From the IMG/VR virus record IMGVR_UViG_3300045733_000100, positions 1 to 35,872 of that record: 35,872 bases of DNA; one strand, 5' to 3'. Positions 5,706-30,810 of this stretch are shown in pieces (position 1 is the stretch's first letter; every line of letters begins with the position of its first letter). Origin of the DNA: a virus. Below the pieces are notes generated by a model that had not been told where the DNA came from, made no database searches, and worked only from the letters and a program-made list of their open reading frames with translations. The position numbers and the translations under genes are program-made.

Positions 5706-8700
5706 ATGAGCAATGATGTTAATGTCAGTCCTCAAGGAGAAATATTAAATAGCACTCCCTTAGGTACTGCACCAGTTGATCCAATAACAGGATTAGAGGA
5801 AGGTGCAAAAAAATTTAAAATAGATGCTAGTAAATTAGAAAGTGCGAGAGCATTGGACAAAGGTGAACTTATAGGCAAAGTATATAATGAAGATGTACTT
5901 GTCCCTAAGTCAGTATATCGAATTTTAGGTGATGATTATCACCCTCAATTTGATCCTGAGTACAATGCTCAACTTTTAGCTAGAGAGCAGTCTAAAGGTG
6001 GTAAATTTTTATCAGCATTAAATCAGGCTGTTGTAGGTAGTGCTATTGGTGGTAGCATATCTGGTTTTGGTTATATGCTAGATTTACCTATGATAGCCGA
6101 TCTAATAGAAGGTACTGAACAAGAGTTTGGTAATGCTTTCACTAGGTTTGGTGAAAAGGCACAAACTTGGACAGAAGTAGCTACTCCTATATATACAGAT
6201 CCAAAAGCATCTAAATTTAATCCTAGTAGTTTTGAATGGTGGATGAAGAACTTACCATCTGTTGCATCTACTGTTGGTTTGGTAATGCCATCAATGGCTG
6301 GCATGTCTGCGCTCAAAGGTATAGCTAGTTTAGTTGGTGCTACTGAAAAGTTAGGTGAATTAGGTAAATTTAGCAAATTATTTACAACTTCCTTAGGTCA
6401 GGCTATAATGTCTAGACATATGGAGAATTTGATGGAAGCTAGAGGAGTTTATGATCAAGGCCTTGGAGATGCTAAAAATGCATTATATAAAAAATATGCT
6501 AGTCAGATTGATAAAGAAATAAATTCATTACCTATATTTACCCCAGTAGATCCAGAAAAAGGTCCACAACCAGGGCAGTATACTAAAGAACAGCGTGAAG
6601 GTGATCTTAATAGAATAAAGAATAAATGGGAAGATAAGATTAGTCAAGAAGCTACTAAAGTAGCAGCTATTGGGGCATCTAATACTTATAATAAACAATG
6701 GGCAATGTTAATACAGGATGTACCTGCATATATGTTACTTAATAGGTTTATGAATAAGGGTGTAACATCAATAGCAAAAGGTGCAGAAGAGAATAGCGTA
6801 CAAGTTGCTAAACATTTAGGTTTAGATACTCCAGCATGGTATGCTAAGAATGCTTATAAGCAAGCTGCAAATGCTGCTGGTGAAAGTGCTGAAGAATTTA
6901 TCCAATTCCTTAATGAACAGCAGTCTTCTGACATGATTAAAAACTTAGCAGATCCAGATAAAAAAACTTCTTTAGCAGATCAAGTATCTAAGAATTGGGA
7001 TAATGGTGATCTTTGGACTAATACATTTTGGGGTGCAGCAGGTGCTGGTGTTATGCAAGCTACAATGGCTGGTATTAGCTCTAAAGCTATGTCTAATTCA
7101 GGAAAAGCTAGGGTTAAACAATTAACAGAGTTATCTCCATTGATAAATAAACTTCATGCTGATTATGTTACAGCAGAAGATGATGGTGATGAGATAGGTA
7201 TGGAAGCTGCTAAGAAAGGGTTCCTTGCTGTTGCTGGTATCAAATCAAAACAGATGGATAATACAGAGCATTTACTTAATATGATAGATGCTTTAGCAAA
7301 TGATGACCAAAATGTATTAACAAATTATGAAATAGATCCTGATACTAGGAAATTTTTTAAAGGTAAGAATGAAATTGCACAGGAGTTAAAAGATGATATA
7401 GGGAACTTATCGAAACGGTATGATGATGCAATAGCAGAAGGTAAGGTTAAAGGTTTATCTGATAAACAAAATGTTTCTGTATCTGCTTCTTTAGCTCATT
7501 CTAATTTTATGTTAGAATTTCTTAATAAGAAATCAGCAGAACAACAGGCTAAATTACAATCTATAGAAGTAGAAGGGTATAGTAAAGCTAATCCTGCTGG
7601 TGAAATACTATCAGATGTTGGCAGACAATCATTTACAGTTGCTTATCAGAAAAGGGACTTGTCAAGAAGATTAGCAGCTACAGAAAAACAATTAGCTAAA
7701 CCTGATATTACTAAGGAAGATAAGGTTAAATATGAAAAACAAAAAGCTAGATTAGAAGGTAAGATTGAATTAGCAAATGAAGTAATTACAGAATTAGGCA
7801 AAGATAATACCTTAACAAAAAAACAAAGAGCTTTAGATGCTAAATTACATGGTGATTTAACTAAAGATGAACCTAATGGTATTATACCTATTGCTGAAGT
7901 TCTTAATTTTATTGATACTCAAAAAAGGGCTAACTCATATGATGAATCAGTAAATTATTTCAAAGATCAGCTTGATGATGCTAGGACCATACAAGATAAT
8001 ATGGTTAAATATAATAAGAAACAAGCTGCTAAACCTATCATACCTACAGAACCAGTTAAACCTCCTATAGAAGAAACAGATGACTTAGATGTAGGTGATC
8101 TTGCAAAGTATATAGGTGTTGACGGTAAGGAAGATAGGGGTATTGTTACGGATGTAGTATATGCTTTACAAGATAGTGAAGGTAAGGAAGTAGAACCTAG
8201 TGCAGAAAATGTAGATAATATTATTACTATACAGCCTGTAGATGAAAATAATAATAAGGTTGGTGACCTAGTGCATGTATCTGGTGCTACTGTTGTTAAA
8301 GAAGCACCTGAAGTACAAGCACAACCTGAAGAGGGTATTGCAGAAGAAGATATAACTGATGTAGAAGATGTTCTTCCTCCAGAAGGTCCTGGGCCAGGAG
8401 ATACTATGAAGGATCAGAATAGACGTAAAACTAATGATGTTAATAAAGGTTTAATAGAGTTTTTATCTTATACAGAATATGAAGAAAAGACTCCAGAGAA
8501 TCAAGGCAAACTTCATAAGCTTAATATACGAAATAAAGCATTAGATGAGTTTCTATCTAATCCAGATAATCAACAATACTTATCAAAAGGTATTGCAAAA
8601 TATTCCTTAGATCTTAAGAATGCTTTCTTTCAAGCTAGATTAGATAAAGCCAGAAAAGAAAAACGTATACCTGCTTATTTGTTAGATGCTTTAGATGAAC

Positions 8701-11700
8701 ATATTAACAAAGGTAAAAAACTCAAAGAAGAAGACATAACCAAATTACTTACATATGCAGATTTTGCTGGAGAAGTAGCGATATCTGCAGAACTATCTAT
8801 TAATGGTAAAACATTTAAAGGTGGTTTATTTGTACATACTTTATCTAAGACTACAGCTAGATTGAAAGATCAACCTACTTTAAAGATATATGCAGAAATG
8901 CGTAAGTCATTAGTAGGTCATTTACTTAGAGGAGATAAAGTATATACTACAGGATTAAGTACTAATAGAGGTAATCCCAATAATATAGATAAAACTAATA
9001 GTCCTGCTGCTAGAAAAGGTGATGTACTTAAAACATTTGGTTTCAAGAGTTATAAGGATATAGAGTTATTTATACTTAAATCATCTACTAAATCTGCTAA
9101 AGCAAAGACATATGAGAATCCTACATTACATAGGGATAATGAATCTATAGAGAATATTCAATTTGATTTTTCATCAACAGGTTCTGTATTTGTTAAGACG
9201 AATAAAACTCTTAATGGCCAACCTTTTGCTGTTAAATTAAATAAATCCTTCATATCAGAGGATCATGCTTTTATTATATTTAATGCATTTAGCACATTAG
9301 CAAAGACTGAATTACTTGATGATCGTAAATACAACGATGGTAAATATAGTGGTAAAATTAAACCACCTCAGAAAAGAGGTAAGATAGGACAATATAGTGT
9401 ACCAATAGATCCTCATGCTAAAGATCAAAAAGAAACGGCTGCGTGGAATATATCAGCTGGTGAATTATTAGAGTTATTAGTAGTACATGGTGAAGAATGG
9501 ACTGATCCAAACCATGTTAGATATAAGTATGTCAATGCTCGTAATTCTATGTCAAAAGAGCATAAAGATGCACTTGAAAATAAAAGACTATTCCTACAGA
9601 GAGGTTATAATGCAGATGGTGTTGTAGATGGTATATATCTATGCTATGGGAAAACTATACCTAAAAATGTAAATACTAGTGTTAAAGGTACTCTAAAAGA
9701 AGTAACTTATAATAGAGTAAATCTAACTTCTCCAAGAACTAAAGGGGCTGATGCAGATGCTTATATGAATGATATAAGCAAATTTTCTGATTGGATACAG
9801 AATAATAAGACATATGCTGTACACTTAGAATTTCCAGGTAAGGAACATGGATTAGCATTAAAACTTAATGGTGGTTTTTTACAAGGTAAAAACTTTAGAA
9901 TTGGTAAGAAAGGATTTGTTGCATACCCTACTGATTTGCCTAATAAAAAATATTCATATGCTATTAATAGTGAAATAGTTAGGAATCCTGGTGAATCGTA
10001 CGTAGAGTTCTTATTAAAAAATGGTTTAGTAACTACAGATATAGAAGAAAAGAATGGTAGTCTATTTAGTACTCCATTCATGCATTTAGGTACTAATCAA
10101 AATGCTAAGCAAGATTTTGGTTTTAAAATAGATGGTACTCCTTATACAGAAGCGCCTGTTACTCCTACATTAGAAAAAGTAGAAGAGATAAAAACAGAAC
10201 CAGAAAAGAAAGCTACTAAAAGTAAACGTGAAAGGACTAAGGAGGAAATTAGCAAAGATGCTGTTACTGAATCTTATGATGATGATATGAGTGTACGTCA
10301 GATAATGGATGACGATAACTTCATTAAACTTAGAGAAAGACCACCTAATACTAAAATATATGATGTACAAGACTTAGAGAAGGAATTAGGTTGGATACGT
10401 AAGACTTTAAATATAGCACCTGATGAAATAAAAATAGAACGTGATTTAGCTAAGATGTTAATTGGTGGTAAGGAAGCTTGGGCTATATTCAGTAGTGCTG
10501 GTCTTACCATATATGAAGCTGCTGAGAAAGGTAGTATATATCATGAAGCATTTCATAAGGTTAACTTAGCATATCATACTAGAGAAGAACGTGAAGCTAT
10601 ATATAGAGCTGCTAGACAACTATATAGTATGCCTAAAGAGTCATTTACTGATAATCAAGTTGAAGAAAAAATAGCAGAAGAGTTTAGAGAGTTTGTTATA
10701 TCAAAGCAGACAGCTCCACAGCCTAAGGGTATTAAAAGGATATTTGAGAATATATATAACTTTATAAGAGCTTTGTTTTATAGAGCTGGTTCTAGATTAG
10801 TACAGTCTGATATAGATAGATTGTTTAATCAGATCTACTCTGGTAAATATCGTTTTGCTAAAGTATTAACAGAGAATAAAAAGATAGAACCTAGACTAAG
10901 ATCTATCCTAGGTGAAAACTTTGATACTATATCTACATACAAAGATATAACTACATTTACTAAATATTTAGCTAAGAAATTGATGAGTTCTAATAATGTA
11001 ACTAATCTTAATGATGTTAGAAATATAACATATCAGGCTTTAATTGATAATTTAAATAAGACTATTAATAGACTTGAAAAACGTATTAGTAAACCAGATA
11101 TATCTGATTCAGAAAAAAATGATGGTATTAAACTTATATCTATTATTAAAGATGCGTTAGGTGAAAAAGATGAAAATGATTTTTATCCTAAGTTTACAGT
11201 ATGGGTTAAATATATAGATAGATTTTTAGGTAATAGTGGAATAATTCATGGCAGGTCTCATGAACATCAAGATGGTATATGGGATGAAGAAGTTAGATAT
11301 TCAGATTTAACAGAAGATGAAAAAAGGGATAATGAAAATTGGAATACACCTGATTACTTTAAACCTTCAAAAGATACCGCATTAGCTAGTGTTAAATTTG
11401 TCATAGATACATTACATGAATCAGATGAAGTAAGCAATACTATAGCAATGATTCCATTTGCTGATGGTAATAAGGTATGGTATAAACTATTAAATGATAT
11501 CATACAGTATGATGATGTAGTAGATATGGTAAATAAGATAAGATCGTTAGGAGAAGAAAATAATTTTTATCCATACATAGAACTTGCAGATATACTTGAT
11601 AATGCTAGTGAATCATTCAGAACTCAATTCCAAAGTTCTTTTGAAATGTACAAACATAAACATCTTGTTGTACAATTTAGAACTACTAGAGAAGGTGATG

Positions 11701-14700
11701 TTAATATGACATTTGATAGTAGTGGTCATGCTGAATTAGCTAGGAATACAGTTCTTAGGTGGAATGAAGTGATGCAGAATGATAGAAATATTGTACAATT
11801 AGAATCAACTAAAAAAGAAGGATCAACAGTTAGGGAAAAGATTGTTAATCAAGGTTTCTTTGATACTTTATCAGAAGATTATGAAACAGATGTAGTGGAT
11901 TGGTATAAAGATAAAACAAACAATGGTGTTACCGAATTATCAGAAAAAGATCTTACTAGTCTATTTAATAAAGTTTCAAAAACACTCAGTAAAATACATG
12001 TAGATATTAATGTAGATGTATTACGTCATTTTGCTTATAATATAAACAGAAATAGAAATTTACAGAATAATTTATATGTGTTTATTAATGATATACATGA
12101 ATTATTAGGACCAGAAATTATTATAGACAATGATGATAAGATAACTAATTACATTAAAAATGAGACTCTAAGATCTTTAGGGGAAGCATATGCTAATGTA
12201 AATTCTCATGAAGAATCTGATATGACTGTAGGTCCAGAAGGTAATATGATATGGAAGTATGCTAAACTTAATCATGCTACAGATCTCCTTAGAAAGATAA
12301 AACGTAGTGAGAAATGGGCTGCTGATAAATTACCTCTTATAGGTAATGGTCATTCTAGAATTCTTAAATCATTTGTAGCTTTAAATGATACACCAGAAGA
12401 GATTGCTAGAGCTAAAGAAGCAAGGGATAGGTTTGGTTTATTCACCATGGCTAATTTTAAAAGACAAGGTAGAAGAGATAAATCTAGTAGAGATTACTTA
12501 CATTTAAATGTATATGAAGATTATTTATTCAAAGCTTATGCTATATTAAATAATGCAGCTTTACCACTTCCTGTTATGGCAAACAGACGCACTTATTTTA
12601 TGATGGAAGGAGTTAAATTAGTTGGTATAGAAGATAATGGTAATGTAATAGATAGTTCTAATGATGATGGTAGTGTAGTATTTACTGATGAAGTTATAAA
12701 CATGTTTTATGATTATTACTTAGATGAAAAAGAAAGAGTAGATGCTGCAATACAAGTTCGTAAAGATTATGAAGAACAAGTTAAATTACACAAAGGGGAT
12801 GAAGTAAAGCTTAGGGAATTAAAGAATGGTTTAATTAGAAATTATCATTATGCTGGTGGTAAATTTAACTTAAAATTAGGTAATGCATATAATTTTATAC
12901 ATTTCAAAGGTTTTGAAAAATTAAAAACTCCTGAACAAGTTAGAGCTAAAATACAAGAACTTCTTAATGATAGACTAAAAGGTGAAGTAGATTTTGTAAC
13001 TAATGAAGGTATTATACAGAGAACTGTTGATTCAGATACTGGTAAAGTAAACCTACATACTAAGTTACTTAGTGATGCTATTATTGCAAATCATAAAGAT
13101 ATAGATCAACCAGATAATTTTGGTATGTTATCAGTATTAGCTAAAATAATGGTTAATACACAAATGGGTATAATTGAATCTGAAAAGTTATTCCTCGGTG
13201 ATCCTGCTCAATTTAAACGTAATGACCCTTCTGACGTATCTAATTACGATACATTTGCTGAATTATATAAAAGATGGTCTGGTGTAGGTGCTACTGGTAC
13301 TAGGTTAAGGGTTAATTATCCTGGTAGGAGTACAACTTATAATGTAGCTACTTTAAATACACAGAAATTTGAATCTATATTTCGTGAACCTATGATTGAA
13401 AAGCATACAGAATTGTATGAAAGTATGTTATTGAATAAGTTAACAGAGGAAGAAAAGAAAGATGAAAATAAGGTAAAAGAGGTTAAAAAATTAGCAAAAG
13501 AATTAGCAACTAGTAGGTTATCAAAATATGAAAACGTTGATCCTACAGATGGTACAGCTTTGATATCTCCAGAGATGTTTAAAGAAGTAACTGATAGGAT
13601 GGGTATATGGGATAAACGTAAAGATGAAGCTTATAATCTATTAAATTCAGATAAAGACTTAAGTGCTGCAGATATTATTAAAGCTAGTAATATAGTATTT
13701 AATCCACTTAAAACTGTATATATGGGTAACCACAATTTTAATAATGTAGATTTACTTATATATAATAAGATGGCTATGTTCACTCTATTTAGACAACATG
13801 TAAAAGGTACCCATTTAGAGAAGGTGTTAGATAGAATGGAATTAAAAGGGGAGTATGCAGATAAGACATTAGAAAAAATACATGTATACAACTTTGATTC
13901 TGCTGTTAAAACTGGTGGTTTGAATGGTATGAATTTATTTTCTAATCCTCAAACTAGAAGTTCCTTAAATGACTTAGGCCAATCATTTGTAATGCAACAG
14001 AATTTTGATAATCTTAAGCATCAACAAGTAGTAGAGGTACATAATGCTACTGAACAAAATTTTGGTACAGCAGGTTTTAAAGTTGCTACAGCTGATATTT
14101 CAAAAACTGAAGATTATGGTGAACATGGTACAGGTGAACAATTATTAAATGATTTACATAGTCTTAGATCTACTTTAAGTAACTTTGGTTTACATAATGT
14201 AGATGCTAAATTCGGTATATCAAACGGTAAGATATCTAACAAAGTGTTTATAGATATGTTACGTAGAGATGCTGAATCTGCTAACAAAGCTTTTGACTTT
14301 GTAAATGCTTTAGTAGTAGATGATAAAGGTGAGAAGTATTTGGAAATAGATTCATTCAATGATAGGAAATGGATATACTCTAGAATAAAGAGTATAGTTG
14401 ATGACATGACTGTTAAATTAAGTACTCCAGGTAACCAGTTGGTACAGATGACTAATTATGGTATGAACAAAGCTGATTATAATGGAGATTTAAAATTCAT
14501 AAGATCAAAGGTTGGTGAACATACTGTAGATGCTATGGAATGTAAAGTATCTATAAGATTATTTAAAAAATTCTTTCCTAGAGGTCATGAAATTACATTA
14601 GTAGAAGCTCAAGAACTTATTAATATTAATCCAGAATTATTTGGTTATCGTGTTCCTACACAAGGTCAAAACTCTTTAGCAAGACTTAAAGTAGTAGGTT

Positions 14701-17700
14701 TATTACCAGCTCAGGTTGGAGACATAATACAGTTACCTCTGGAATTTACAGCTTTAACTGGTTCTGACTTTGATATAGATAAATTATTTGTTGCTATGCA
14801 TAATTATGAACATTATACTAGTGATAATGGTGAGGTTAGATTAAAGAAAACTGCTTTTTTAACTGGTAATACAAAAGAAGAACAAAGAGATAGGTATGAT
14901 AATAAGATATTAGAATTATTTGAAATATATAAATATTCTTTAGAATCTTTTAGAGATGTTTTAGTAGAAGATGATAATGGTAAGAAAGTACCGATAGTTA
15001 GTAAATATTTTAATTCTAATAGAGAAGAACTCAGTGATATAGCAAAGGAATATAGGGAAAATAAAAAAGAATATGAAAATGAAGAGTATAATTTATTAAT
15101 GAAGGTTATATCATTAGAAAATAAAATAGCAGAAACTAATAAAGAATCATACAAGAAATCATTGGAATATGATTTAACAGACGCAAAGATAAAGTTAGAA
15201 GAAATTAAATCTAAATTAACTAATACACCTTATGAAATAGAACTTAGAAAAATGATGAATTTATCAGATATGGCTTCTTTACAAGAACACTTAATATTAT
15301 CTGATAAACTACCTGAATTTGAAGACTTTATCAAATTACCAATAGAAGAGCAAAATTCAAATAGAGCTGTACAGAATCAGTTGTTAGATAAGTTATTAGT
15401 AATACTATCAGATGAAAAACATTTTATCAACATGACTACCCCATTAGGTATTATGAATGATAAACTTGAAAATAAAGCTGATTTTTATGATGATATATAC
15501 AAACCTAATGAAAAGTCTAATGTACCAGCATTATTTACAACTACTCCATCTTTTCAAGCTGCAATGAAATTAAAATTTGCATCTTCTACATTTGGTATAG
15601 CTCCATATGCATTAAATAATAATCATCATTCATTAACTCAAATGGCTAATGTAGTTATGAAATCTAATATAGATTTAGGCTTTAATGAAAAAGGTAAAAT
15701 AGATCTATCTAGAGTCATGGATGAAGATAGAATGTATATTACATGGTGGATGTCTGCACTTATAGATGCTCACGTAGATGGTGTTAACAAACCTTACATT
15801 ACATCATTAAATGTTAATGAATCTACTCATGATATATTGAATTTTCTTATTAGATCTGGTTTAGGGGAAATTAGTTTTGATTTTATCAATCAGCCTATAA
15901 TTAGGGCTTATAGTGATTCTTTCTTCAAAACTAATAAAAGTTTTGGCAAAGGGGCAAATAGAATATCAACAATTGATCAATCTGATCCTATTGCATATAC
16001 ATTAGGTTTTTATAATGAACTTATAGGTCCAGATGGTTTAGCTTTAATGACAAATGATGAATTGGTTAATACTACTTTTGCAAAAGATAGTTTGATACCA
16101 TTGCCTGAACTTTTAAATGTCGATCAATTAAAAGCAGATGCCAAAGAGTCTATGCAATCTACTCAAAGTAAAGAATATTATATAAGACAATTATCTATAT
16201 TATATCATTTAGGTGCAAGGGATGGTATTAAAAATGATTCAAAGTTACTTAATAATTTTGTATTAGCTTCTAGAGTAGATACTGGTAAATATGGTGCTAA
16301 TCCAGTAGAGATTATCCATTTCTTAAATCAGATTAAGAATGTAATGCAAACTGGAAGATTTGAAAATATTGACAAAATATTAACTTTTGATCCAGAATAT
16401 ACATATAAAAAAGGTGATACATTCTTACCAACTTTAATTAAGAATAGCATGTTTAAGATATATGATATTCTTAAGAATGAAAGTATATATGCTACTGTTG
16501 GTTTTAATAACATGATAGATAATTTAGCAGATAGTACTTCTGGTGGTACTTACAATAGGTTATCAACTATTAATATTCTTATGGAAGAACTTATGACTCA
16601 TTTCATAGGTAAATTCTTAGCAGATCCAATCAATGGTATGGGTATGAAATTTGATAACTTGGTAAACTTAATGTTTGAAAGACAAGGTTCTATATATAAT
16701 AAAATATCAAATTTAAAAAATAATAAACATGAATTATCAGATCAAGTTAAGGATAATCCTTTAATGGAAAATTTAATTATAGATTACTCTGATGATATAA
16801 TAAAAGATAAAGATGGTGAAGGTATTCCATATACTTATATAAAAGCTCCATATTGGTCAAGAAGAGATGATATGTTAAGAGATGAATCAGTAGATGGTTA
16901 CAAAGATTTATTAGCTAGTCCACATCCATACTTACAATCATTAGGTATAGCTTTATATGCATATTCATTCTATACTTCAGGGTTTAGACAAAGAATGTAT
17001 TCTTATACATCATCTATTCCATTGAGTATGAGTAGGGAATTTAAATATCAAAATAAAACACTACATTTTAATGAGCATATGAAGAAAATATTAGCTACTT
17101 TAAATTCTAAAGAGGGTTATTTAGAATTGCTAACAAAAGCCAAACGTGAGATATTTACTAACATGTGGGCAACTGAAGGTTTTGCACAAGAAATGACGTG
17201 GGATGATACAATCATGACTGCATTTCATAATCAAGATGCAGAAAATTTAGGTGTAAAAATAGAACTTGGTAGAAAAGAATTAGCTAAACTTCATTTAGGT
17301 ATTAATGCTGATAGGGAAAATATATACAAGCCATATATACTTATATATCAATCAGAAACTAATTCTACATTATACGAATATGCTGGTTATGATAAAATAA
17401 CTAATGCTTTATATTATGTATCTGTAAGTAAAAAAGGTTTTGGTTCTAATGGTCATGGTACTAAAGGGTTATTCTTTAATGAATATGGTATTGAAAATAT
17501 TAAAGGTGATGAAAGATCTGTACTAATAAATAATAATCCTACCACTAAAAGATATACTATAGAAGAGAAAGTTAGTATAATGAAAGAAGATATGATAGGT
17601 GACGAATTAGTTAATTTTATACCTGTACCATTAGAAAAACAATTAGTTAAAGAAAAAGGCGTAGGTTTAGCAGAAAACTTCTATACAGAAGATGATGCAG

Positions 17701-18503
17701 CTGAACTTAGAGAATTAGGTATAGAACAAGGAAATAAAGATAAACAATTGGAACAAAGACAAAAATTAAATCGTAAAGCATATAGTTTACGTGATTATGA
17801 TGACGAAACTGCACCAAATAAAATTAATGAAGATTTAAAAGCATCAACTAATAATAAGTCTACATATGAAGCACCTATATATATTGATGTAGATGGTTCT
17901 GCTAGAGGTAAGAATGGCTTAGGTATTGGAGCATATGCAGAATTTGGTGAAGATAAATATTTCCTACGTGCTACAGATGCAGATCTAAGAGCTTATTTAA
18001 CTAAGGAGTTAGGTAAACGTGGATATGAACCAGTAAAAGATTTTAATAACATTAATGCAGAATTAATGGCATTATTAACAACATTAAATGCATTTAGGGA
18101 TACATCTGAGCATTTGTATATATCACAAGATTACGAAACATTATTATATTTTATTAAGAATGCAGTTAATCCTAATGAAGTTAATACAACTACATTAGAT
18201 TATATACAGTTTACACCTAATCGTAATAAACCAGATATGGTATTCTTAATTGAAGCTATACAAAATCGTATCAATGAGATTGAAGGTAATGGTGGTTCTG
18301 TACGTCTTAAATATGTACCTAGTAAATCTACTAAGGGTAATAAGATGGCAGATCAATTAGCTAAAGGGGACCACCCAACTATATTTAATACTAGGAATGA
18401 TTTCAGGTCAGGGGAATGGGGCAAGCCTACACTTAATATAGCTAGTACTTCAAAAGAAGATGCTAAAGAGGCAGATAAAAACAACAATAAAGATTGTAAA
18501 TAA
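5706..18503 (+). CDS. Giant virion RNA polymerase fusion protein (cargo region, zincin, RNAP, RNase H)
   Basis: This is one uninterrupted 4265-residue frame. Residues about 1-560 are cargo-like, with Gly/Ala-rich hydrophobic segments near 98-130, 183-212 and 438-460. Pro/Glu-rich linkers follow near 777-795 and 865-899, with an unrecognised domain at about 905-1480. A zincin metallopeptidase domain spans about 1525-1715, with HEAFH at 1613-1617. The RNA polymerase region spans roughly 1720-3950. Its active site is DFDID at 3021-3025, preceded by RVPTQGQNS and GDIIQLPLEF, which match the order around the metal-binding loop of a double-psi beta-barrel RNAP. An RNase HI-like domain occupies about 4055-4236, with D4061/D4063, E4119, D4142 and D4216. 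By family knowledge, the single-chain vRNAP of crAss-like phages travels in the virion and transcribes early genes. The stop overlaps the next start (TAATG), suggesting coupled translation. The polymerase call is strong; the domain borders are estimates. Confidence 0.88.
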   Translation: MSNDVNVSPQGEILNSTPLGTAPVDPITGLEEGAKKFKIDASKLESARALDKGELIGKVYNEDVLVPKSVYRILGDDYHPQFDPEYNAQLLAREQSKGGKFLSALNQAVVGSAIGGSISGFGYMLDLPMIADLIEGTEQEFGNAFTRFGEKAQTWTEVATPIYTDPKASKFNPSSFEWWMKNLPSVASTVGLVMPSMAGMSALKGIASLVGATEKLGELGKFSKLFTTSLGQAIMSRHMENLMEARGVYDQGLGDAKNALYKKYASQIDKEINSLPIFTPVDPEKGPQPGQYTKEQREGDLNRIKNKWEDKISQEATKVAAIGASNTYNKQWAMLIQDVPAYMLLNRFMNKGVTSIAKGAEENSVQVAKHLGLDTPAWYAKNAYKQAANAAGESAEEFIQFLNEQQSSDMIKNLADPDKKTSLADQVSKNWDNGDLWTNTFWGAAGAGVMQATMAGISSKAMSNSGKARVKQLTELSPLINKLHADYVTAEDDGDEIGMEAAKKGFLAVAGIKSKQMDNTEHLLNMIDALANDDQNVLTNYEIDPDTRKFFKGKNEIAQELKDDIGNLSKRYDDAIAEGKVKGLSDKQNVSVSASLAHSNFMLEFLNKKSAEQQAKLQSIEVEGYSKANPAGEILSDVGRQSFTVAYQKRDLSRRLAATEKQLAKPDITKEDKVKYEKQKARLEGKIELANEVITELGKDNTLTKKQRALDAKLHGDLTKDEPNGIIPIAEVLNFIDTQKRANSYDESVNYFKDQLDDARTIQDNMVKYNKKQAAKPIIPTEPVKPPIEETDDLDVGDLAKYIGVDGKEDRGIVTDVVYALQDSEGKEVEPSAENVDNIITIQPVDENNNKVGDLVHVSGATVVKEAPEVQAQPEEGIAEEDITDVEDVLPPEGPGPGDTMKDQNRRKTNDVNKGLIEFLSYTEYEEKTPENQGKLHKLNIRNKALDEFLSNPDNQQYLSKGIAKYSLDLKNAFFQARLDKARKEKRIPAYLLDALDEHINKGKKLKEEDITKLLTYADFAGEVAISAELSINGKTFKGGLFVHTLSKTTARLKDQPTLKIYAEMRKSLVGHLLRGDKVYTTGLSTNRGNPNNIDKTNSPAARKGDVLKTFGFKSYKDIELFILKSSTKSAKAKTYENPTLHRDNESIENIQFDFSSTGSVFVKTNKTLNGQPFAVKLNKSFISEDHAFIIFNAFSTLAKTELLDDRKYNDGKYSGKIKPPQKRGKIGQYSVPIDPHAKDQKETAAWNISAGELLELLVVHGEEWTDPNHVRYKYVNARNSMSKEHKDALENKRLFLQRGYNADGVVDGIYLCYGKTIPKNVNTSVKGTLKEVTYNRVNLTSPRTKGADADAYMNDISKFSDWIQNNKTYAVHLEFPGKEHGLALKLNGGFLQGKNFRIGKKGFVAYPTDLPNKKYSYAINSEIVRNPGESYVEFLLKNGLVTTDIEEKNGSLFSTPFMHLGTNQNAKQDFGFKIDGTPYTEAPVTPTLEKVEEIKTEPEKKATKSKRERTKEEISKDAVTESYDDDMSVRQIMDDDNFIKLRERPPNTKIYDVQDLEKELGWIRKTLNIAPDEIKIERDLAKMLIGGKEAWAIFSSAGLTIYEAAEKGSIYHEAFHKVNLAYHTREEREAIYRAARQLYSMPKESFTDNQVEEKIAEEFREFVISKQTAPQPKGIKRIFENIYNFIRALFYRAGSRLVQSDIDRLFNQIYSGKYRFAKVLTENKKIEPRLRSILGENFDTISTYKDITTFTKYLAKKLMSSNNVTNLNDVRNITYQALIDNLNKTINRLEKRISKPDISDSEKNDGIKLISIIKDALGEKDENDFYPKFTVWVKYIDRFLGNSGIIHGRSHEHQDGIWDEEVRYSDLTEDEKRDNENWNTPDYFKPSKDTALASVKFVIDTLHESDEVSNTIAMIPFADGNKVWYKLLNDIIQYDDVVDMVNKIRSLGEENNFYPYIELADILDNASESFRTQFQSSFEMYKHKHLVVQFRTTREGDVNMTFDSSGHAELARNTVLRWNEVMQNDRNIVQLESTKKEGSTVREKIVNQGFFDTLSEDYETDVVDWYKDKTNNGVTELSEKDLTSLFNKVSKTLSKIHVDINVDVLRHFAYNINRNRNLQNNLYVFINDIHELLGPEIIIDNDDKITNYIKNETLRSLGEAYANVNSHEESDMTVGPEGNMIWKYAKLNHATDLLRKIKRSEKWAADKLPLIGNGHSRILKSFVALNDTPEEIARAKEARDRFGLFTMANFKRQGRRDKSSRDYLHLNVYEDYLFKAYAILNNAALPLPVMANRRTYFMMEGVKLVGIEDNGNVIDSSNDDGSVVFTDEVINMFYDYYLDEKERVDAAIQVRKDYEEQVKLHKGDEVKLRELKNGLIRNYHYAGGKFNLKLGNAYNFIHFKGFEKLKTPEQVRAKIQELLNDRLKGEVDFVTNEGIIQRTVDSDTGKVNLHTKLLSDAIIANHKDIDQPDNFGMLSVLAKIMVNTQMGIIESEKLFLGDPAQFKRNDPSDVSNYDTFAELYKRWSGVGATGTRLRVNYPGRSTTYNVATLNTQKFESIFREPMIEKHTELYESMLLNKLTEEEKKDENKVKEVKKLAKELATSRLSKYENVDPTDGTALISPEMFKEVTDRMGIWDKRKDEAYNLLNSDKDLSAADIIKASNIVFNPLKTVYMGNHNFNNVDLLIYNKMAMFTLFRQHVKGTHLEKVLDRMELKGEYADKTLEKIHVYNFDSAVKTGGLNGMNLFSNPQTRSSLNDLGQSFVMQQNFDNLKHQQVVEVHNATEQNFGTAGFKVATADISKTEDYGEHGTGEQLLNDLHSLRSTLSNFGLHNVDAKFGISNGKISNKVFIDMLRRDAESANKAFDFVNALVVDDKGEKYLEIDSFNDRKWIYSRIKSIVDDMTVKLSTPGNQLVQMTNYGMNKADYNGDLKFIRSKVGEHTVDAMECKVSIRLFKKFFPRGHEITLVEAQELININPELFGYRVPTQGQNSLARLKVVGLLPAQVGDIIQLPLEFTALTGSDFDIDKLFVAMHNYEHYTSDNGEVRLKKTAFLTGNTKEEQRDRYDNKILELFEIYKYSLESFRDVLVEDDNGKKVPIVSKYFNSNREELSDIAKEYRENKKEYENEEYNLLMKVISLENKIAETNKESYKKSLEYDLTDAKIKLEEIKSKLTNTPYEIELRKMMNLSDMASLQEHLILSDKLPEFEDFIKLPIEEQNSNRAVQNQLLDKLLVILSDEKHFINMTTPLGIMNDKLENKADFYDDIYKPNEKSNVPALFTTTPSFQAAMKLKFASSTFGIAPYALNNNHHSLTQMANVVMKSNIDLGFNEKGKIDLSRVMDEDRMYITWWMSALIDAHVDGVNKPYITSLNVNESTHDILNFLIRSGLGEISFDFINQPIIRAYSDSFFKTNKSFGKGANRISTIDQSDPIAYTLGFYNELIGPDGLALMTNDELVNTTFAKDSLIPLPELLNVDQLKADAKESMQSTQSKEYYIRQLSILYHLGARDGIKNDSKLLNNFVLASRVDTGKYGANPVEIIHFLNQIKNVMQTGRFENIDKILTFDPEYTYKKGDTFLPTLIKNSMFKIYDILKNESIYATVGFNNMIDNLADSTSGGTYNRLSTINILMEELMTHFIGKFLADPINGMGMKFDNLVNLMFERQGSIYNKISNLKNNKHELSDQVKDNPLMENLIIDYSDDIIKDKDGEGIPYTYIKAPYWSRRDDMLRDESVDGYKDLLASPHPYLQSLGIALYAYSFYTSGFRQRMYSYTSSIPLSMSREFKYQNKTLHFNEHMKKILATLNSKEGYLELLTKAKREIFTNMWATEGFAQEMTWDDTIMTAFHNQDAENLGVKIELGRKELAKLHLGINADRENIYKPYILIYQSETNSTLYEYAGYDKITNALYYVSVSKKGFGSNGHGTKGLFFNEYGIENIKGDERSVLINNNPTTKRYTIEEKVSIMKEDMIGDELVNFIPVPLEKQLVKEKGVGLAENFYTEDDAAELRELGIEQGNKDKQLEQRQKLNRKAYSLRDYDDETAPNKINEDLKASTNNKSTYEAPIYIDVDGSARGKNGLGIGAYAEFGEDKYFLRATDADLRAYLTKELGKRGYEPVKDFNNINAELMALLTTLNAFRDTSEHLYISQDYETLLYFIKNAVNPNEVNTTTLDYIQFTPNRNKPDMVFLIEAIQNRINEIEGNGGSVRLKYVPSKSTKGNKMADQLAKGDHPTIFNTRNDFRSGEWGKPTLNIASTSKEDAKEADKNNNKDCK

Positions 18504-23608: not shown

Positions 23609-23613
23609 AAAGT

Positions 23614-23634
23614 AAAGGGGCAGTTAGCCCCTTT
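23614..23634. terminator. Bidirectional terminator between convergent blocks
   Basis: An 8-bp perfect stem (AAAGGGGC pairing with GCCCCTTT) closes a 5-base loop, AGTTA. On the + strand it is followed by TTCTTT and on the - strand by TTTACTTTTT, so it can stop transcription from both sides. It lies 5 bases after the stop of the 1701-residue gene and 10 bases before the AAA+ stop codon. Confidence 0.88.
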
Positions 23635-23644
23635 TTCTTTATTA

Positions 23645-24667
23645 CTAGTTACTCATTATTTGACTGAGTACCATAGCTTTCATCATATTGTCCATAGCAG
23701 ATTTGCTTTCTTCACGCATTTCTTCTATTTCTTCTTCTCTTTCTACTTCTACCTTTGACTTTTTACCACGATTATCATTAGGTGTGGCAAATCCAATTAC
23801 CTTTTTTGCTGCTTTCTTTTTGTCTTTAGATTTACGTATACCATCTAATAATTCTGGTGCTGTTTTACCAGTATTAAGTTCATATATCTTATTACGTAAT
23901 AATACGGTAATAAAATCGATAGATGGTTTAATACCATATTCTATAAATTCTAATGCAATTTCATCTGCATTAATAGTTTCTTTATATTTTTCAGGTATAA
24001 CAGATACGATCATAGCCTTAATAACTTCAGCATCTTCTGTATCAAAATTATAAACTCTTTCAATACGACCAATACGATTAATAATGGTTTCAGGTAATTT
24101 TTTAGTTGAGTTTACAGTAGCAATGATAAATACATTATGTCTACTATTTGTTCCATCTAAGAAACTAAGCATATCTAATTCATTATCATTAGATTTTTCA
24201 TACTCATCAATAAGTATACCTATCCAACGATCAGGATCTTCAAGTCTTATAGTATCAATAAGTTCATGCATTGATACACGAGGTTCTCCTTTAGACATAA
24301 TACATACCGCATTCTTTTTCTGAACAAGTTCTTCCATTAATTGTCCTGCTAAATATGTCTTACCAGTACCAGGTCCACCATTGAATATTAAAGCTAATTT
24401 ACTCATTAACCCTAATTCTTTTCTAGCTTCATCAGCACCTTCATTTAAGAAGAATTCTACATGTTCTCTTGCTTCAGTAAATACACCAGTATTTATAGAA
24501 ACACCTTTTTTATATCTATCGTTTTTTTCTACATATATCTTTATACCATTCCAATTTGCAACGGTTTTTAAAGTATACATAGCACTTTCCAATTTACTTG
24601 TTACGTCCTTTGTCGATTGAGGGATAATTTCATAATTACCTTCTCCAGATTCTTGTTTTACAAACAT
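23645..24667 (-). CDS. AAA+ ATPase
   Basis: The 340-residue protein carries a complete AAA+ module: Walker A GGPGTGKT at 97-104, Walker B ILIDEYE near 151-157, sensor 1 asparagine in ATVNST near 186, and an arginine-finger-like NRIGR at 198-202. The N-terminal 70 residues are a separate small domain. The C-terminal 70 residues are a Lys/Glu-rich tail, probably extended or coiled. Such ATPases form ring-shaped motors that remodel proteins or DNA complexes; the target here is unknown. A close relative is commonly present near the replication genes of crAss-like phages. It appears to be a single-gene unit: a terminator precedes its leader, a terminator follows its stop, and a TTAAC-N6-TTAACA motif lies 19 nt before its ATG. 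It ends TAG TAA TAA. Confidence 0.85.
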   Translation of the reverse strand: MFVKQESGEGNYEIIPQSTKDVTSKLESAMYTLKTVANWNGIKIYVEKNDRYKKGVSINTGVFTEAREHVEFFLNEGADEARKELGLMSKLALIFNGGPGTGKTYLAGQLMEELVQKKNAVCIMSKGEPRVSMHELIDTIRLEDPDRWIGILIDEYEKSNDNELDMLSFLDGTNSRHNVFIIATVNSTKKLPETIINRIGRIERVYNFDTEDAEVIKAMIVSVIPEKYKETINADEIALEFIEYGIKPSIDFITVLLRNKIYELNTGKTAPELLDGIRKSKDKKKAAKKVIGFATPNDNRGKKSKVEVEREEEIEEMREESKSAMDNMMKAMVLSQIMSN

Positions 24668-24686
24668 ATGATATGTGATTTTATAT

Positions 24687-24703
24687 TGTTAATATTCAGT
24701 TAA
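24687..24703 (-). promoter_or_regulatory. Direct-repeat motif TTAAC-N6-TTAACA before the AAA+ gene
   Basis: On the - strand this reads TTAAC TGAATA TTAACA, two TTAAC units 11 bp apart. It lies exactly 19 nt before the ATG of the AAA+ gene and just after a terminator. The same motif at the same distance precedes the coiled-coil gene. Its placement suggests a promoter or operator. It does not look like the usual Bacteroidota promoter (TTTG and TAnnTTTG). Confidence 0.5.
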
Positions 24704-24714
24704 TTATATAAATG

Positions 24715-24736
24715 AAAAAGGGGGTATAAAACCCCC
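24715..24736 (-). terminator. Rho-independent terminator after the GIY-YIG gene
   Basis: On the - strand, GGGGG and CCCCC pair around a 7-base loop and are followed directly by TTTTT. It sits 33 bases past the stop of the GIY-YIG gene and separates it from the AAA+ unit. Confidence 0.8.
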
Positions 24737-24769
24737 GATCTCATTAATAAACAATATTTAAATATAGAA

Positions 24770-25084
24770 TTATTTCTCTACACTAGTAAGTTTTTCAATA
24801 GTTTCGATTGCTTCTGCTATAGTACATTCATACCATTCAAAACCATTATTATGTATATTAGTTTTAAAGTAATTTTCTATTTCTGCAACATCTTGAACTT
24901 TTCCTACATACTTATTATAGATAAGTTCATATTCTCTAAAAGGACATCCAGTTTGATAACTAGTTAATCTATTTTTCAAATCTGTAGTTCTACCTAATTT
25001 TATCCATCCATCAAATTTAGGATGAATAATTATATAGATAAAATATTGTCTTCTAGAGATATATCCCTTTGTATAATCTTTCAT
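24770..25084 (-). CDS. Small GIY-YIG / T5orf172-type nuclease
   Basis: The 104-residue protein fits the compact GIY-YIG branch often called T5orf172 or Mug113. It has YFIYIII at 14-20 (the GIY-like strand), WIKLGRTTDLKNRL at 27-40 (the YIG-like strand with the catalytic arginine region), and a candidate metal-binding glutamate in AEIENYF near 67-70. Proteins of this type nick or cut DNA and are often mobile genes in phages. There is no extra DNA-binding domain, so this may be the catalytic core alone. The gene is isolated, with a gap upstream and a terminator downstream, which fits a recent insertion between the coiled-coil and AAA+ genes. A house-keeping role in phage DNA processing is also possible. 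Confidence 0.68.
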   Translation of the reverse strand: MKDYTKGYISRRQYFIYIIIHPKFDGWIKLGRTTDLKNRLTSYQTGCPFREYELIYNKYVGKVQDVAEIENYFKTNIHNNGFEWYECTIAEAIETIEKLTSVEK

Positions 25085-25214
25085 ATAACTATTTTTTAGT
25101 AATACGAAATAGGATATAAAAATGTTACAAAATTTTAAATATCGTCGCTAAGGCCATTTAGAAGCGATTTAAGACACTATCTCCTTTGGCTAAGGGTTAG
25201 TATCAAAAATAGAT
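25085..25214 (-). other. Intergenic gap with possible degenerate coding remnant
   Basis: This 130-bp gap separates the coiled-coil gene from the GIY-YIG gene. On the - strand it contains a weak hairpin (TCGCT pairing with AGCGA, 13-base loop) followed by AT-rich sequence, which may be a weak terminator. Two short overlapping frames read like protein (LAKGDSVLNRF and KSLLNGLSDDI, then stop) but have no start codon and lie in different frames. No clear promoter was found. It could be the remains of a small gene or an unstructured leader. Confidence 0.3.
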
Positions 25215-26177
25215 TTAATTCATGTAGGCATAAGGAGAATACATATCAGAAGAAACTGTACCATATGTGTAGGTATAGTTAGTATTAGGTTTATTCCTTA
25301 ATACTCTTTCATGTTCTTCCTTAGCTTTTCTCCTACGAGTTTCTGCTATGGTTTCACTACGATAGTCTTCCTTATGTATATTTCTATACTCAACCTTATT
25401 GGCTAATTCCTTAGCTTCCTGAAGTTCCTTAATAGCCTGTTTCTTTGCTGATGTATCAACAAATGTACTTATAAGTCTATAGAACCAATTGCCTGTTCTA
25501 ACAGGTTCTTCTATTTCCTTAGTAAGTCGTTCAATAGTAGTTTTAAGAGTCATAAGATCATCTTCACGCTGAGTTTCAAGTTCATCATCAAGCTTATTCT
25601 TCTTAACCTTTACTATCTCATCTTTCAATTCTTTAATCTCATCATCATATGCTTCCACAACTTTAAGATATTTCTTACGAGTTTTTTCTTCCCATTCTGT
25701 ATTGTCAACACTAATAGACTTATTAACACGTTCGATTTTCTTCTTCAGTTCATCTGCTTGTATTTCAAGATCTAATTGTGTATTTTCAGCTTCGGATAAA
25801 GACTTCTTTAATTTAGCCTCTATCTCACTTCTCATAGCAGATTCCTCTGCTTTAAAGTTAGAATAGGTTGTAGTAACTTTATCTTTTCCACAATGACCAC
25901 AATTATTTTTGTAATCAGTATAGTCAGATTTACCACAATGAGGGCATTTTGTACGACCATTTGAATCTGCAATGGCATACGTTTTTACTATTACTTTTTC
26001 AGACTTCTTTGATTCATCTTCAATTCTTTTGATCTCCGCTTCTTTTGATCTTATTAATTCATCTTTGGAACCTAAAGCAATGTTTAAATTTGCTATCTTT
26101 TCCATCAATGTAGTGACGTGATCTGTTGCTCTTTTAAGATCAGCGTCCTTTTGTACGAGGAGATCTAATTCTTTCAT
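25215..26177 (-). CDS. Coiled-coil protein with central zinc ribbon
   Basis: I do not recognise this 320-residue protein as a named family. Residues 1-62 form a predicted coiled coil. A compact zinc ribbon follows with four cysteines (C78, C81, C93, C96; CPHCG and CGHCG). Residues about 105-260 form a long charged coiled coil, and the last 50 residues are basic, then Tyr-rich. The flow of Lys/Glu heptads suggests an elongated dimer or a folded-back hairpin. There is no ATPase or nuclease motif. It could be a DNA- or RNA-binding scaffold. The start is supported by the TTAAC-N6-TTAACA motif 19 nt before the ATG. It lies between a terminator upstream and the GIY-YIG gene downstream. Confidence 0.75.
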   Translation of the reverse strand: MKELDLLVQKDADLKRATDHVTTLMEKIANLNIALGSKDELIRSKEAEIKRIEDESKKSEKVIVKTYAIADSNGRTKCPHCGKSDYTDYKNNCGHCGKDKVTTTYSNFKAEESAMRSEIEAKLKKSLSEAENTQLDLEIQADELKKKIERVNKSISVDNTEWEEKTRKKYLKVVEAYDDEIKELKDEIVKVKKNKLDDELETQREDDLMTLKTTIERLTKEIEEPVRTGNWFYRLISTFVDTSAKKQAIKELQEAKELANKVEYRNIHKEDYRSETIAETRRRKAKEEHERVLRNKPNTNYTYTYGTVSSDMYSPYAYMN

Positions 26178-26196
26178 TTACAATTGTTTTTGTTGT

Positions 26197-26213
26197 TGTT
26201 AATAATTTGTTAA
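26197..26213 (-). promoter_or_regulatory. Direct-repeat motif TTAAC-N6-TTAACA before the coiled-coil gene
   Basis: On the - strand this reads TTAAC AAATTA TTAACA and ends 19 nt before the ATG, the same arrangement as at the AAA+ gene. The sequence between motif and start differs in the two places, so spacing as well as sequence appears to be kept. It overlaps the stop codon of the short frame at 26199-26310. Confidence 0.5.
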
Positions 26214-26310
26214 CTTTAATTGATTGATGATGGCATTATTAACCAAGTCATCTAACGTGGTTCCGAAAGGAACTTGTCTAACCTTTAATTCGCTAAAATT
26301 GTAACATCAT
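26199..26310 (-). other. Possible 36-residue small gene interrupted by a +1 frameshift
   Basis: On the - strand, ATG ATG TTA CAA TTT is followed by TAG. Skipping one T of the TTTT run gives a further 32 codons that read like real protein (SELKVRQVPFGTTLDDLV, then NNAIINQLKLTNY and TAA). The longer frame has no usable start codon of its own. It may be a small gene broken by one inserted T, a sequencing or assembly error, or a recoding site resembling the release-factor-2 frameshift (sense codon, T, stop). It lies just after a strong terminator and before the coiled-coil gene. A 5-bp inverted repeat (GTTCC and GGAAC) lies within it. Function unknown. Confidence 0.35.
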
Positions 26311-26344
26311 TCTATTACTAAAAGGCTATATTGTGAATTATAGT

Positions 26345-26372
26345 AAAAAGGGTGAAGCTTAAAGCTCCACCC
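26345..26372 (-). terminator. Rho-independent terminator containing the stop codon of the upstream gene
   Basis: On the - strand a 9-bp stem (GGGTGGAGC with GCTTCACCC, one G-U pair) closes the 5-base loop TTTAA and is followed by TTTTTA. The TAA stop of the 173-residue gene lies at the loop and the first side of the stem, so the gene's last codons form part of the hairpin. Confidence 0.88.
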
Positions 26373-26880
26373 CTATACCATAAATTAATTCTCTCATTGT
26401 TGGTTTATTGTGATATCCTCGAACTGATTGCAATTCGTACATATTTCGCATTTGAGCATTATGACTCATTGCTAACTCTAAAACATCATATAATACACCA
26501 TACAAAGGACTATTTGTTGATTCTTTCCAAAAGTGTAATAACTTTTGTTTGTATTGTTCAGATAATTGGCTATAGTCCCCGCTAATTACTGAATATAAAT
26601 CATCTTGATACTCACGAGGTATTTCAAATATAAATAGATATTTATTATTGACTTCATCGTATATCTTTCTTAAAGATAGATCTAATCTGCAGTTTTTAGG
26701 TTCTGCAGAATATGTAGATACGAGTATTATATGATCATCAAATTCTGGTTTATCGAAAATAGATATACAAGTTTTGTAAAAAGTTTTTGAAATGTCTTCA
26801 TATGTGGCATCTTTTTTCATTACCATTGGTAGGATAAACTTTGAAGTGGTATCTCTTCCTATGTAATTAATTATGTCCAT
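26359..26880 (-). CDS. Hypothetical protein, last gene of an operon
   Basis: I do not recognise this 173-residue protein. It has a mixed alpha/beta pattern in the first 90 residues (IILVSTYS, then YLFIFEIP) and a helical second half (SEQYKQKLLHFW, then LYDVLELAMSH). There are no cysteine clusters, nucleotide-binding loops or membrane segments. It follows the RecB/RecE-like exonuclease gene with a 1-base gap and ends at a strong terminator, so it is probably co-expressed with the recombination genes. A helper role in recombination or replication is possible but rests only on position. Confidence 0.7.
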   Translation of the reverse strand: MDIINYIGRDTTSKFILPMVMKKDATYEDISKTFYKTCISIFDKPEFDDHIILVSTYSAEPKNCRLDLSLRKIYDEVNNKYLFIFEIPREYQDDLYSVISGDYSQLSEQYKQKLLHFWKESTNSPLYGVLYDVLELAMSHNAQMRNMYELQSVRGYHNKPTMRELIYGIGVEL

Positions 26881-26881
26881 A

Positions 26882-27829
26882 TTATATATTTATTATTCCA
26901 GCACCTTCATAATAATCTTTAGTATATTCCCATTGATTGTTATCAAAATGCCATTTTAACTGTTCTGTTAATGTTTCTATTTCATTAAATCCTTTATTTA
27001 AAGTTTCTGATGATATATTATAAACTTTAATTTCTGTTGGTTCTTTAGTATTAATTGCTATTACATAACAGTTAATAGTATAACCTTGATAGGGCATATT
27101 AAATGTATTCTGTACAGCCCCATAATAAAAAGCTAATTGTCTATAATATTTATAATCAAAGAATTTCTTTTCAAATTGGTCATAATCAGCAGAAGTTTTT
27201 AAATCTACTATAGTTATTGTATGATTTTCTTCATTAATAATAACTCTATCTAACATAGATTTACATTCTACTCCATTATGAGTCCATTCAATAGGATATT
27301 CATTATAAACATGTATGTTTGGATTGTAATGAACTGTGAATAGTTTATTTGCTACTTTATGCTCAAACAATTTACTACGTATTTCATATAGTTTAGTCTT
27401 TACACTTGTAGGTAAAACTACTTTTATTGTTGAAACTTTTATGGATTTTATATATTTTTTATACTCATCTGCTAAAGCTTTTGCTTTTTCTAGTACTTTT
27501 TCATCACTTTCTTTAGTAGTATAACACTCTTTATAGGCCCTAAGGAGTATTTCATCCTTAGAACCTGATTTAAAGCGTGCTACTTTGCTACAGAAGTCCT
27601 TTTGTTGAGGACTTTTTGGTGCTTCAAAGTCTAAAAACACATATTCTTTATCAAAATTCTCTGGTTCGAGTATAAAACTATGAACATATTTGCCTTTTTT
27701 GTATATAAAAGCATTTTCTTCATCAATTTCTTTATCTAATCTCATTTTAAAATATAAAGGAGACTGTTCAAACCATGATAAAGAGGTACTACTTACTTTT
27801 TTAATATTATAATAATCTTTTTCTTGCAT
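26882..27829 (-). CDS. RecB/RecE-like PD-(D/E)XK exonuclease
   Basis: The 315-residue protein shows the motif order of RecB-like and phage exonuclease VIII-type nucleases. H50 lies in KKGKYVHSFIL, and a glutamate is present near 177-181 in NEYPIEW. D194 follows in MLDRV, then VDLKT at 208-212 with D209 and K211, and Q231-x3-Y235. These are the residues that bind metal and the phosphodiester in this superfamily. The likely role is to resect double-stranded DNA ends to give single strands for the Sak4-like ATPase and SSB encoded upstream. Its ATG shares one base with the TAA of the 53-residue gene, so translation is probably coupled. The class is fairly sure; exonuclease polarity cannot be read from sequence. 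Confidence 0.78.
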   Translation of the reverse strand: MQEKDYYNIKKVSSTSLSWFEQSPLYFKMRLDKEIDEENAFIYKKGKYVHSFILEPENFDKEYVFLDFEAPKSPQQKDFCSKVARFKSGSKDEILLRAYKECYTTKESDEKVLEKAKALADEYKKYIKSIKVSTIKVVLPTSVKTKLYEIRSKLFEHKVANKLFTVHYNPNIHVYNEYPIEWTHNGVECKSMLDRVIINEENHTITIVDLKTSADYDQFEKKFFDYKYYRQLAFYYGAVQNTFNMPYQGYTINCYVIAINTKEPTEIKVYNISSETLNKGFNEIETLTEQLKWHFDNNQWEYTKDYYEGAGIINI

Positions 27830-27990
27830 TACAAGATAATTCTTTTAATAGTTTCTCTTGGAATATAATGAAGATCATTGTTTTGGCTAAGTAATACAAA
27901 ACAATTCATAGATTCGTTATAATCAAACGATTCTACATTAAAGAAATTTAACTCATCATCTATTGTTTCGAAATATATATGTTTAAGCAT
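27829..27990 (-). CDS. Small 53-residue protein nested between nuclease genes
   Basis: This short gene starts with ATG at 27990 on the - strand and encodes 53 residues (MLKHIYFETIDDELNFFNVE at the start, ETIKRIIL at the end). It overlaps the stop of the PD-(D/E)XK nuclease gene by 8 bases and shares TAATG with the exonuclease gene, exactly filling the space between them. The tight overlaps at both ends, lack of stops and ordinary amino-acid make-up support a real gene. The pattern is beta strands followed by a short C-terminal helix. It resembles the small beta-rich proteins common in phages. No function can be assigned. Confidence 0.72.
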   Translation of the reverse strand: MLKHIYFETIDDELNFFNVESFDYNESMNCFVLLSQNNDLHYIPRETIKRIIL

Positions 27991-28459
27991 TGTATTTGGT
28001 TTTAATTATGTTTATTACTTGGTCTATATGTTTTAGATTCCTAGGCATATAAATATCGGCTTGTATGTCTTTATCTACTAAGGATTTTTTAAATAACTTC
28101 CACCTAAGTGGAAATGCGTCATTTGGATTGCCTTTTGTTTCGATAATAAACATTCTGCCGGTATCTAGATATGTACCTACAAAATCTGGAGTATACGTGA
28201 TACCCTTAACATTTGACCTTATCTGTTCGAATTGTTTGTAATTCTTTCGTTTTACTAATTCATAGCAGTCATTCGTAAATATAAATGAATCTAATAAATT
28301 AAATCTTACAGAATCATAACTAAAAGTTATTGGTAATACTAATGCAAGTTGTTGTAATTGTTTGTAACAGTATAATTCTAATTTACTTTTAAAGATTATA
28401 CCTTCATATTCAAGAATGGTTGCATTTCGAACTTTCCTATTAGGAACTTGTGTTCTCAT
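27983..28459 (-). CDS. PD-(D/E)XK nuclease, resolvase-like
   Basis: The 158-residue protein has a small PD-(D/E)XK fold: E28 in the first helix (FKSKLELYCYKQL), PDF at 91-93 and IETK at 106-109. Basic residues follow in LRWKLFKKSL. The arrangement fits single-domain phage nucleases such as T7 endonuclease I-type resolvases or the DUF1064 group. Likely roles are cutting branched DNA during replication and recombination. Its 5' end overlaps the primase gene by 20 bases and its 3' end overlaps the 53-residue gene by 8, placing it firmly in the replication operon. The nuclease call is good; the junction-resolving role is inference. Confidence 0.75.
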   Translation of the reverse strand: MRTQVPNRKVRNATILEYEGIIFKSKLELYCYKQLQQLALVLPITFSYDSVRFNLLDSFIFTNDCYELVKRKNYKQFEQIRSNVKGITYTPDFVGTYLDTGRMFIIETKGNPNDAFPLRWKLFKKSLVDKDIQADIYMPRNLKHIDQVINIIKTKYNA

Positions 28460-29435: not shown

Positions 29436-29444
29436 TGTATAATA

Positions 29445-30068
29445 TTAGAATGGTAAGTCATCTTCAGTGTTGGTGACCGTAATAGTGGTACTATCACCTT
29501 CTGGTACTAATACATTATCTATTACTAAATCCTTATAAGGATTTGGTCTTTCTTCTTTTTTATCTGGTGCATCTTTAACCATCTTATCTATAGATGAGAT
29601 TTCCAGCCTACTCTTTTCCTTTGGTATGTCCATACTTTCTATGAACGGTACATATTTTGGTAATGAGGTAAAATTCTTAGGAGAATAAATGACTTTTATT
29701 CTCATTTTCTTCTTTTCAAATTTACCTGTGAGAATTCTTATTATTTCTTTGCAATATTCTTCAAATGTATTCTTCTCAATATCAAATACTTCTTCTGTAA
29801 CATATTTAGTTGCAATATGTTTGAATCGTATTGTCTGATTAAGTTTCTTATCTTCTAAGACATTACCATCCTTATCTTTAGGCTCATATTCAGTATGAGT
29901 TAACTTCTTCCCATCTTTTTCAAATGTGAATACTATGAAAGGATTATTATTAGGACTAATTTTATACTCAATAGAGACCAGTTCTACGTTTTCATGAATA
30001 CCTGGTTCTATAAAATTTAAGGTTCTTCCCTCTGAATTAATTGTTTTGTTTACTTTATATGTTGACAT
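29445..30068 (-). CDS. Single-stranded DNA-binding protein with acidic tail
   Basis: The 207-residue protein is beta-rich in its first 120 residues, as expected for an OB-type fold (ENVELVSIEYKI, then PFIVFTFEKDGKK). It ends in a Thr-rich linker and the acidic tip EDDLPF. That tip closely resembles the DDDIPF tail of bacterial SSB, which recruits partner proteins. The role would be to coat single-stranded DNA during replication and recombination. It lies between the Sak4-like ATPase and primase genes, with short gaps of 18 and 9 bases. An AGGAG ribosome-binding site lies 9 nt before the start, which is unusual for this genome. Confidence 0.72.
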   Translation of the reverse strand: MSTYKVNKTINSEGRTLNFIEPGIHENVELVSIEYKISPNNNPFIVFTFEKDGKKLTHTEYEPKDKDGNVLEDKKLNQTIRFKHIATKYVTEEVFDIEKNTFEEYCKEIIRILTGKFEKKKMRIKVIYSPKNFTSLPKYVPFIESMDIPKEKSRLEISSIDKMVKDAPDKKEERPNPYKDLVIDNVLVPEGDSTTITVTNTEDDLPF

Positions 30069-30077
30069 ATTATTATA

Positions 30078-30082: not shown

Positions 30083-30086
30083 ATTT

Positions 30087-30737: not shown

Positions 30738-30753
30738 TTATCTAATGTTTAAT

Positions 30754-30796: not shown

Positions 30797-30810
30797 AGTG
30801 TTATTTATAA

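Follow-up and report, generated by a model that had tools for sequence, protein, structure and literature searches.

The AAA+ ATPase and coiled-coil protein genes on the minus strand of a crAss-like virus record are both preceded by the repeat TTAAC-N6-TTAACA, at the same distance from their start codons. Does this repeat act as a unit, as an early promoter or a paired operator, or does only part of it carry a signal? The question was addressed in the whole stretch of DNA analysed, a 35,872-base virus record referred to here as the window, and in related viral contigs.

Table 1. Positions in the window of the two sites, their parts and neighbouring features.
Feature	Position	Strand	Remark
Virion RNA polymerase-like protein, giant (4265 aa)	5706..18503	+	phmmer to 6vr4, E 2.5e-41; DFDID motif
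AAA+ ATPase gene	23645..24667	-	Pfam AAA, E 4e-10; phrog_2376, E 6e-19; downstream of box 1
Site 1, exact match TTAACTGAATATTAACA	24703..24687	-	19 nt before ATG 24667 (AAA+ gene)
TATTAAC box of AAA+ gene leader (box 1)	24688..24694	-	starts 27 nt before ATG 24667
Upstream TTAAC of site 1	24699..24703	-	conserved in no relative
GGGGG/CCCCC hairpin	24720..24736	-	part of AAA leader
GIY-YIG (T5orf172) gene	24746-25151	-	insertion of ~400 bp
Variant of second motif	25100-25128	-	44 nt before GIY-YIG ATG
Conserved noncoding element AGTGTCTTAAATCGCTTCTAAATGGC	25153-25178	-	upstream of AAA gene; also in several relatives
Coiled-coil gene	25215..26177	-	homologues 34-40% identical, same place in relatives; downstream of box 2
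Site 2, exact match TTAACAAATTATTAACA	26213..26197	-	19 nt before ATG 26177 (coiled-coil gene)
TATTAAC box of coiled-coil leader (box 2)	26198..26204	-	starts 27 nt before ATG 26177; overlaps stop codon of decayed small ORF
Upstream TTAAC of site 2	26209..26213	-	derives from codons close to the 3' end of the small ORF (DNA alignment to G001)
Decayed remnant of 74-82 codon gene	26178..26340	-	local alignment to G001

The virus and its polymerase gene

By its polymerase and DnaB matches the virus is assigned to the crAss-like phages; its DnaB shares 63% identity with the DnaB of the uncultured phage cr118_1 (Crassvirales, Suoliviridae). A search of phage records found no near DNA match to the window, and an Rfam search over positions 23600-35872 gave no match. 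The 4265-aa protein carries its DFDID motif at residue 3021. Its phmmer match, 6vr4, is annotated as DNA-dependent RNA polymerase and is the structure that we take to be phi14:2 gp66. By this match and motif, the genome encodes a virion polymerase homologue.

Occurrence of the paired motif

Exact-match searches of the whole window agreed with the sequence-only reading in finding two copies of TTAAC-N6-TTAACA, each 19 nt before an ATG, and no third. For this pattern, which was chosen after it had been seen, 0.08 copies were expected, and two or more copies arose in 1 of 100 shuffles. At equal distance from the ATG, 14 of 17 bases are common to both leaders. Shuffling the seven intergenic leaders of the window reproduced a likeness of this degree in 16 of 300 trials, and shuffling the leaders of all window genes did so in 51 of 300. 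Because of this recurrence and the post-hoc choice of the pattern, the pair taken alone is weak evidence. The window showed no enrichment of the half-site TTAACA (57 vs 50.3). TTAACA alone was also considered as an enriched word upstream of genes and was rejected (12 vs 8.2).

Homologues of the AAA protein (63-66% identity) were found in five viral contigs, which represent about three distinct phages and have conserved gene order. A pattern scan of viral contigs for the coiled-coil protein found no relatives, and its homologues were located by synteny instead. The pair was present anywhere in the contigs of these syntenic relatives in 0/5 cases, and no exact copy was found in G006, an overlapping contig of the window's own virus (100% identity over 6347 bases). 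A few exact copies occur elsewhere, in G009, G014 and cr4_1. In the leader sets tested, the G009 and G014 copies followed no pattern of placement before genes. In cr4_1 (NC_055893), two exact copies lie in opposite orientation, 33 bp apart, at 78720-78769.

What relatives keep is the extended 3' half, TATTAAC. Of the leaders of AAA homologues, that of G002 has it starting at -27 and that of G010 at -21, both without the upstream TTAAC, and the AAA leaders of other relatives hold diverged forms of the box. G006 contains a third TATTAAC leader of the same virus, before gene 16569; it shares 16 of 17 bases with the AAA leader at equal distance (0/300 shuffles) and has no 5' half.

At site 2, DNA alignment to the nearest relative, G001, showed a counterpart that reads TTAACAAATT-AATTATTAAC, with a spacer of 9 and not 6. 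Before the coiled-coil ATG of G001, TATTAAC lies at -27, as in the window, inside an intact small ORF. In G001, G002 and G005 this small gene of 74-82 codons is intact and lies immediately before the coiled-coil gene. Positions 26340-26178 of the window aligned to the G001 gene with a score of 95 versus 35.9 +/- 5.6 for shuffles (z 10.5); z was 3.1 for G002 and 0.1 for G005, both of which are too diverged for clear alignment. By this alignment, the 5' TTAAC of site 2 derives from codons of the decayed gene. Among the leaders compared, a spacer of 6 occurs in the window only. The proposed two-part structure with a fixed 6-base spacer was rejected as a functional unit, given its absence from the five relatives and the other spacing in G001. 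We take both the spacer length of 6 and the TTAAC before it to be accidental, and the pair to be mostly a coincidence.

TATTAAC as a positional signal

Gene starts were those of a simple ORF caller that accepted ATG alone, and the replication arm was defined as the strand carrying DnaB, not by expression. Leaders with a gap of at least 18 nt were counted, the 7-mer starting at -33 to -17 before the ATG. In the near relatives TATTAAC occurred 9 times versus 1.1 expected (7 versus 0.9 when the window virus was omitted). In three gut genomes (grp2) it was the top 7-mer (9 versus 0.9; reached in 0/200 shuffles), a signal that comes partly from homologous genes. For a held-out test, 7-mer and position range were fixed before three annotated, unused genomes (cr118_1, cr4_1 and cr273_1) were searched. 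TATTAAC was again the top 7-mer of the replication-arm leaders, with 7/80 versus 0.42 expected, and was found in 1/154 leaders of the other strand.

Over all sets (16 crAss-like contigs), the box was present in 21/328 replication-arm leaders and 2/398 leaders of the other strand (p = 4e-6), i.e. before early or replication genes and hardly ever before late ones, with arms assigned by the DnaB strand. The 139 permutations of its letters gave a mean of 1.9 and a best count of 9 in the replication-arm leaders, versus 21 for TATTAAC itself; no other 7-mer of the same composition was as over-represented at these positions, and the reverse complement occurred 3 times. At replication-arm genes of crAss-like phages, TATTAAC some 27 bases ahead of the start codon is a genuine signal. 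One of the other-strand copies (G013, homologue in G014) seems in our reading to belong to the coding end of the gene before it.

The 33 replication-arm occurrences are spread over 25 protein families and share the consensus TATTAACNAAAA; no second conserved box was found upstream of them. They start 18-28 nt before the ATG, so that the exact 19-nt rule of the earlier reading gives way to a looser placement in which only TATTAAC is kept. The motif search over genome and relatives suggested by that reading thus turned up a positional signal in the extended 3' half and no pattern for the pair. As the exact box is present in only ~6% of the leaders on the replication arm, it cannot be the sole start signal. 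At loci L062, L069, L071, L080 and L106 of gut crAss-like phages the box directly follows apparent tRNA 3' ends; the gene behind it encodes a protein of 619-674 aa, probably a DNA polymerase.

No enrichment of TATTAAC was seen in phi14:2 leaders, but hits in phi14:2 and crAss001 were too few to carry weight. The DnaB query found no match in these two phages, and their arms could therefore not be assigned by it.

Hairpins, the GIY-YIG gene and a second motif

The earlier claim that each motif follows a terminator ending the preceding unit was partly right. The hairpin at site 1 belongs to the AAA leader itself and is present there even where relatives have no GIY-YIG gene. Another hairpin, the one preceding site 2, is some 130 bp distant from it, and the decayed gene lies in between. 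The GIY-YIG gene, which is absent from all syntenic relatives and is probably a mobile homing-type gene, was inserted between the AAA hairpin and the conserved element. Some copies of the conserved element are hairpin-like, and in L003 a second, partly inverted copy is present; when the element was tested as an RNA structure, no consensus fold was found in a weak alignment.

With the insertion comes a variant form of a second motif, GTAAC-N16-CGTATAA, of which the window holds no other form. Its bipartite form TTGTAAC-YTTTT-N-TACGTATAA has constant spacing and precedes small genes of G005, G008, G009 and G002, mostly near the divergent early region of near relatives (loci L119-L128, L006-L011 and L012). 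High-scoring sites numbered 26, a count that includes those used to build the matrix, versus 1-3 in Markov sequences. No enrichment of this motif was seen in gut relatives, phi14:2 or crAss001. It is a candidate early promoter of the near-relative clade. Like TATTAAC it may be a phage promoter at short distance from the ATG; unlike TATTAAC it has two conserved boxes at constant spacing.

Comparison with the host promoter

The Bacteroidota housekeeping (sigma-A) promoter is TTG-N17-21-TAnnTTTG, with TTG near -33 and TAnnTTTG near -7. An AT-rich, -10-like region near the start is common to it and the window sites, but neither site matches it, in line with the sequence-only reading; TAnnTTTG is absent from both leaders. 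The full promoter had 0 matches among grp1 replication-arm leaders. In phi14:2, with arms assigned by hand, a Bacteroidota-type promoter was present in 5/13 opposite-strand (late) leaders versus 0/23 replication-arm leaders.

Discussion

The single TATTAAC box, in its extended form, is most likely the core of a phage promoter that gives replication-arm genes a short leader; we set the probability of this reading at about 0.55. It is favoured because the arm bias fits a promoter of the early or replication class and not a general translation signal. RNA polymerase would melt or read the AT-rich box, and transcription would begin a few bases downstream, leaving leaders of roughly 10-20 nt. The likeliest reader, though a speculative one, would be the virion RNA polymerase, for which the giant window protein is the candidate. 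Of the earlier proposal of an early promoter read by this enzyme, a phage-specific promoter-like element before both ATGs and an encoded polymerase homologue remain, and the two-part form does not.

In a tentative extension, which we regard as possible but doubtful, the giant virion polymerase would recognise TATTAAC as a single-box promoter throughout the Suoliviridae-type crAss-like phages. Two known systems come closest. According to the review PMC10136315, the virion polymerase of phi14:2 (gp66; Drobysheva et al. 2021, as cited there) makes early transcripts, regulatory and replicative, in a rifampicin-resistant manner. The window shares with this system a polymerase homologue and a box before the same gene class; it differs in that phi14:2 leaders show no such enrichment, and box specificity must differ between families if the promoter reading is right. 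For Thermus phage P23-45, AT-rich promoters of pre-early genes have been proposed for a virion-packaged two-barrel polymerase (PMC10770324). An AT-rich motif upstream of genes and a polymerase of the same broad class are common to both cases, but the P23-45 promoters are tied to mapped starts and ChIP-seq, and the likeness to TATTAAC drawn here is one of AT-richness.

Several observations speak against a promoter: (i) within what look like operons, some copies immediately follow a stop codon or the end of a tRNA; (ii) the G001 box is within coding sequence; (iii) phi14:2, in which the box is unenriched, is the sole crAss-like phage with a tested virion polymerase. The first of these would fit a signal in the transcript leader, with a role in initiating translation or processing RNA in Bacteroidota hosts poor in Shine-Dalgarno sequences, as would the fixed location near the ATG, the A-rich stretch that follows the box and the lack of a -35-like partner. 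Such a signal would be needed equally by late genes, yet the late arm is nearly devoid of the box; a distance of 18-28 nt is far for ribosome contact and varies by 10 nt. We consider this explanation, the chief competitor, somewhat unlikely, and the promoter reading accounts better for the arm bias.

A lineage-specific bipartite early promoter formed by the full repeat, as first proposed for this virus, is very improbable. Its two exact copies at identical ATG distance are set against its absence from the syntenic relatives and from G006, the missing 5' half in the third leader of that contig, and the codon origin and different spacing of the 5' half at site 2. About as improbable is an accident that includes TATTAAC itself: the leaders are AT-rich and a 17-nt likeness is by itself not rare, but held-out replication, permutation ranking and arm bias all argue otherwise. 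Least credible is a repressor operator with half-sites 11 bp apart, which the 11-bp repeat (about one DNA turn) and the opposed copies in cr4_1 might suggest but against which stand the unconserved spacing, the unenriched half-site and the retention of TATTAAC alone in relatives.

If the giant virion polymerase does read TATTAAC as its promoter, the box would be a first sequence handle on how this family of enzymes chooses promoters in uncultured phages of the gut and the environment. Short, and defined in position and gene class, it can be addressed directly by start-site mapping and in vitro transcription.
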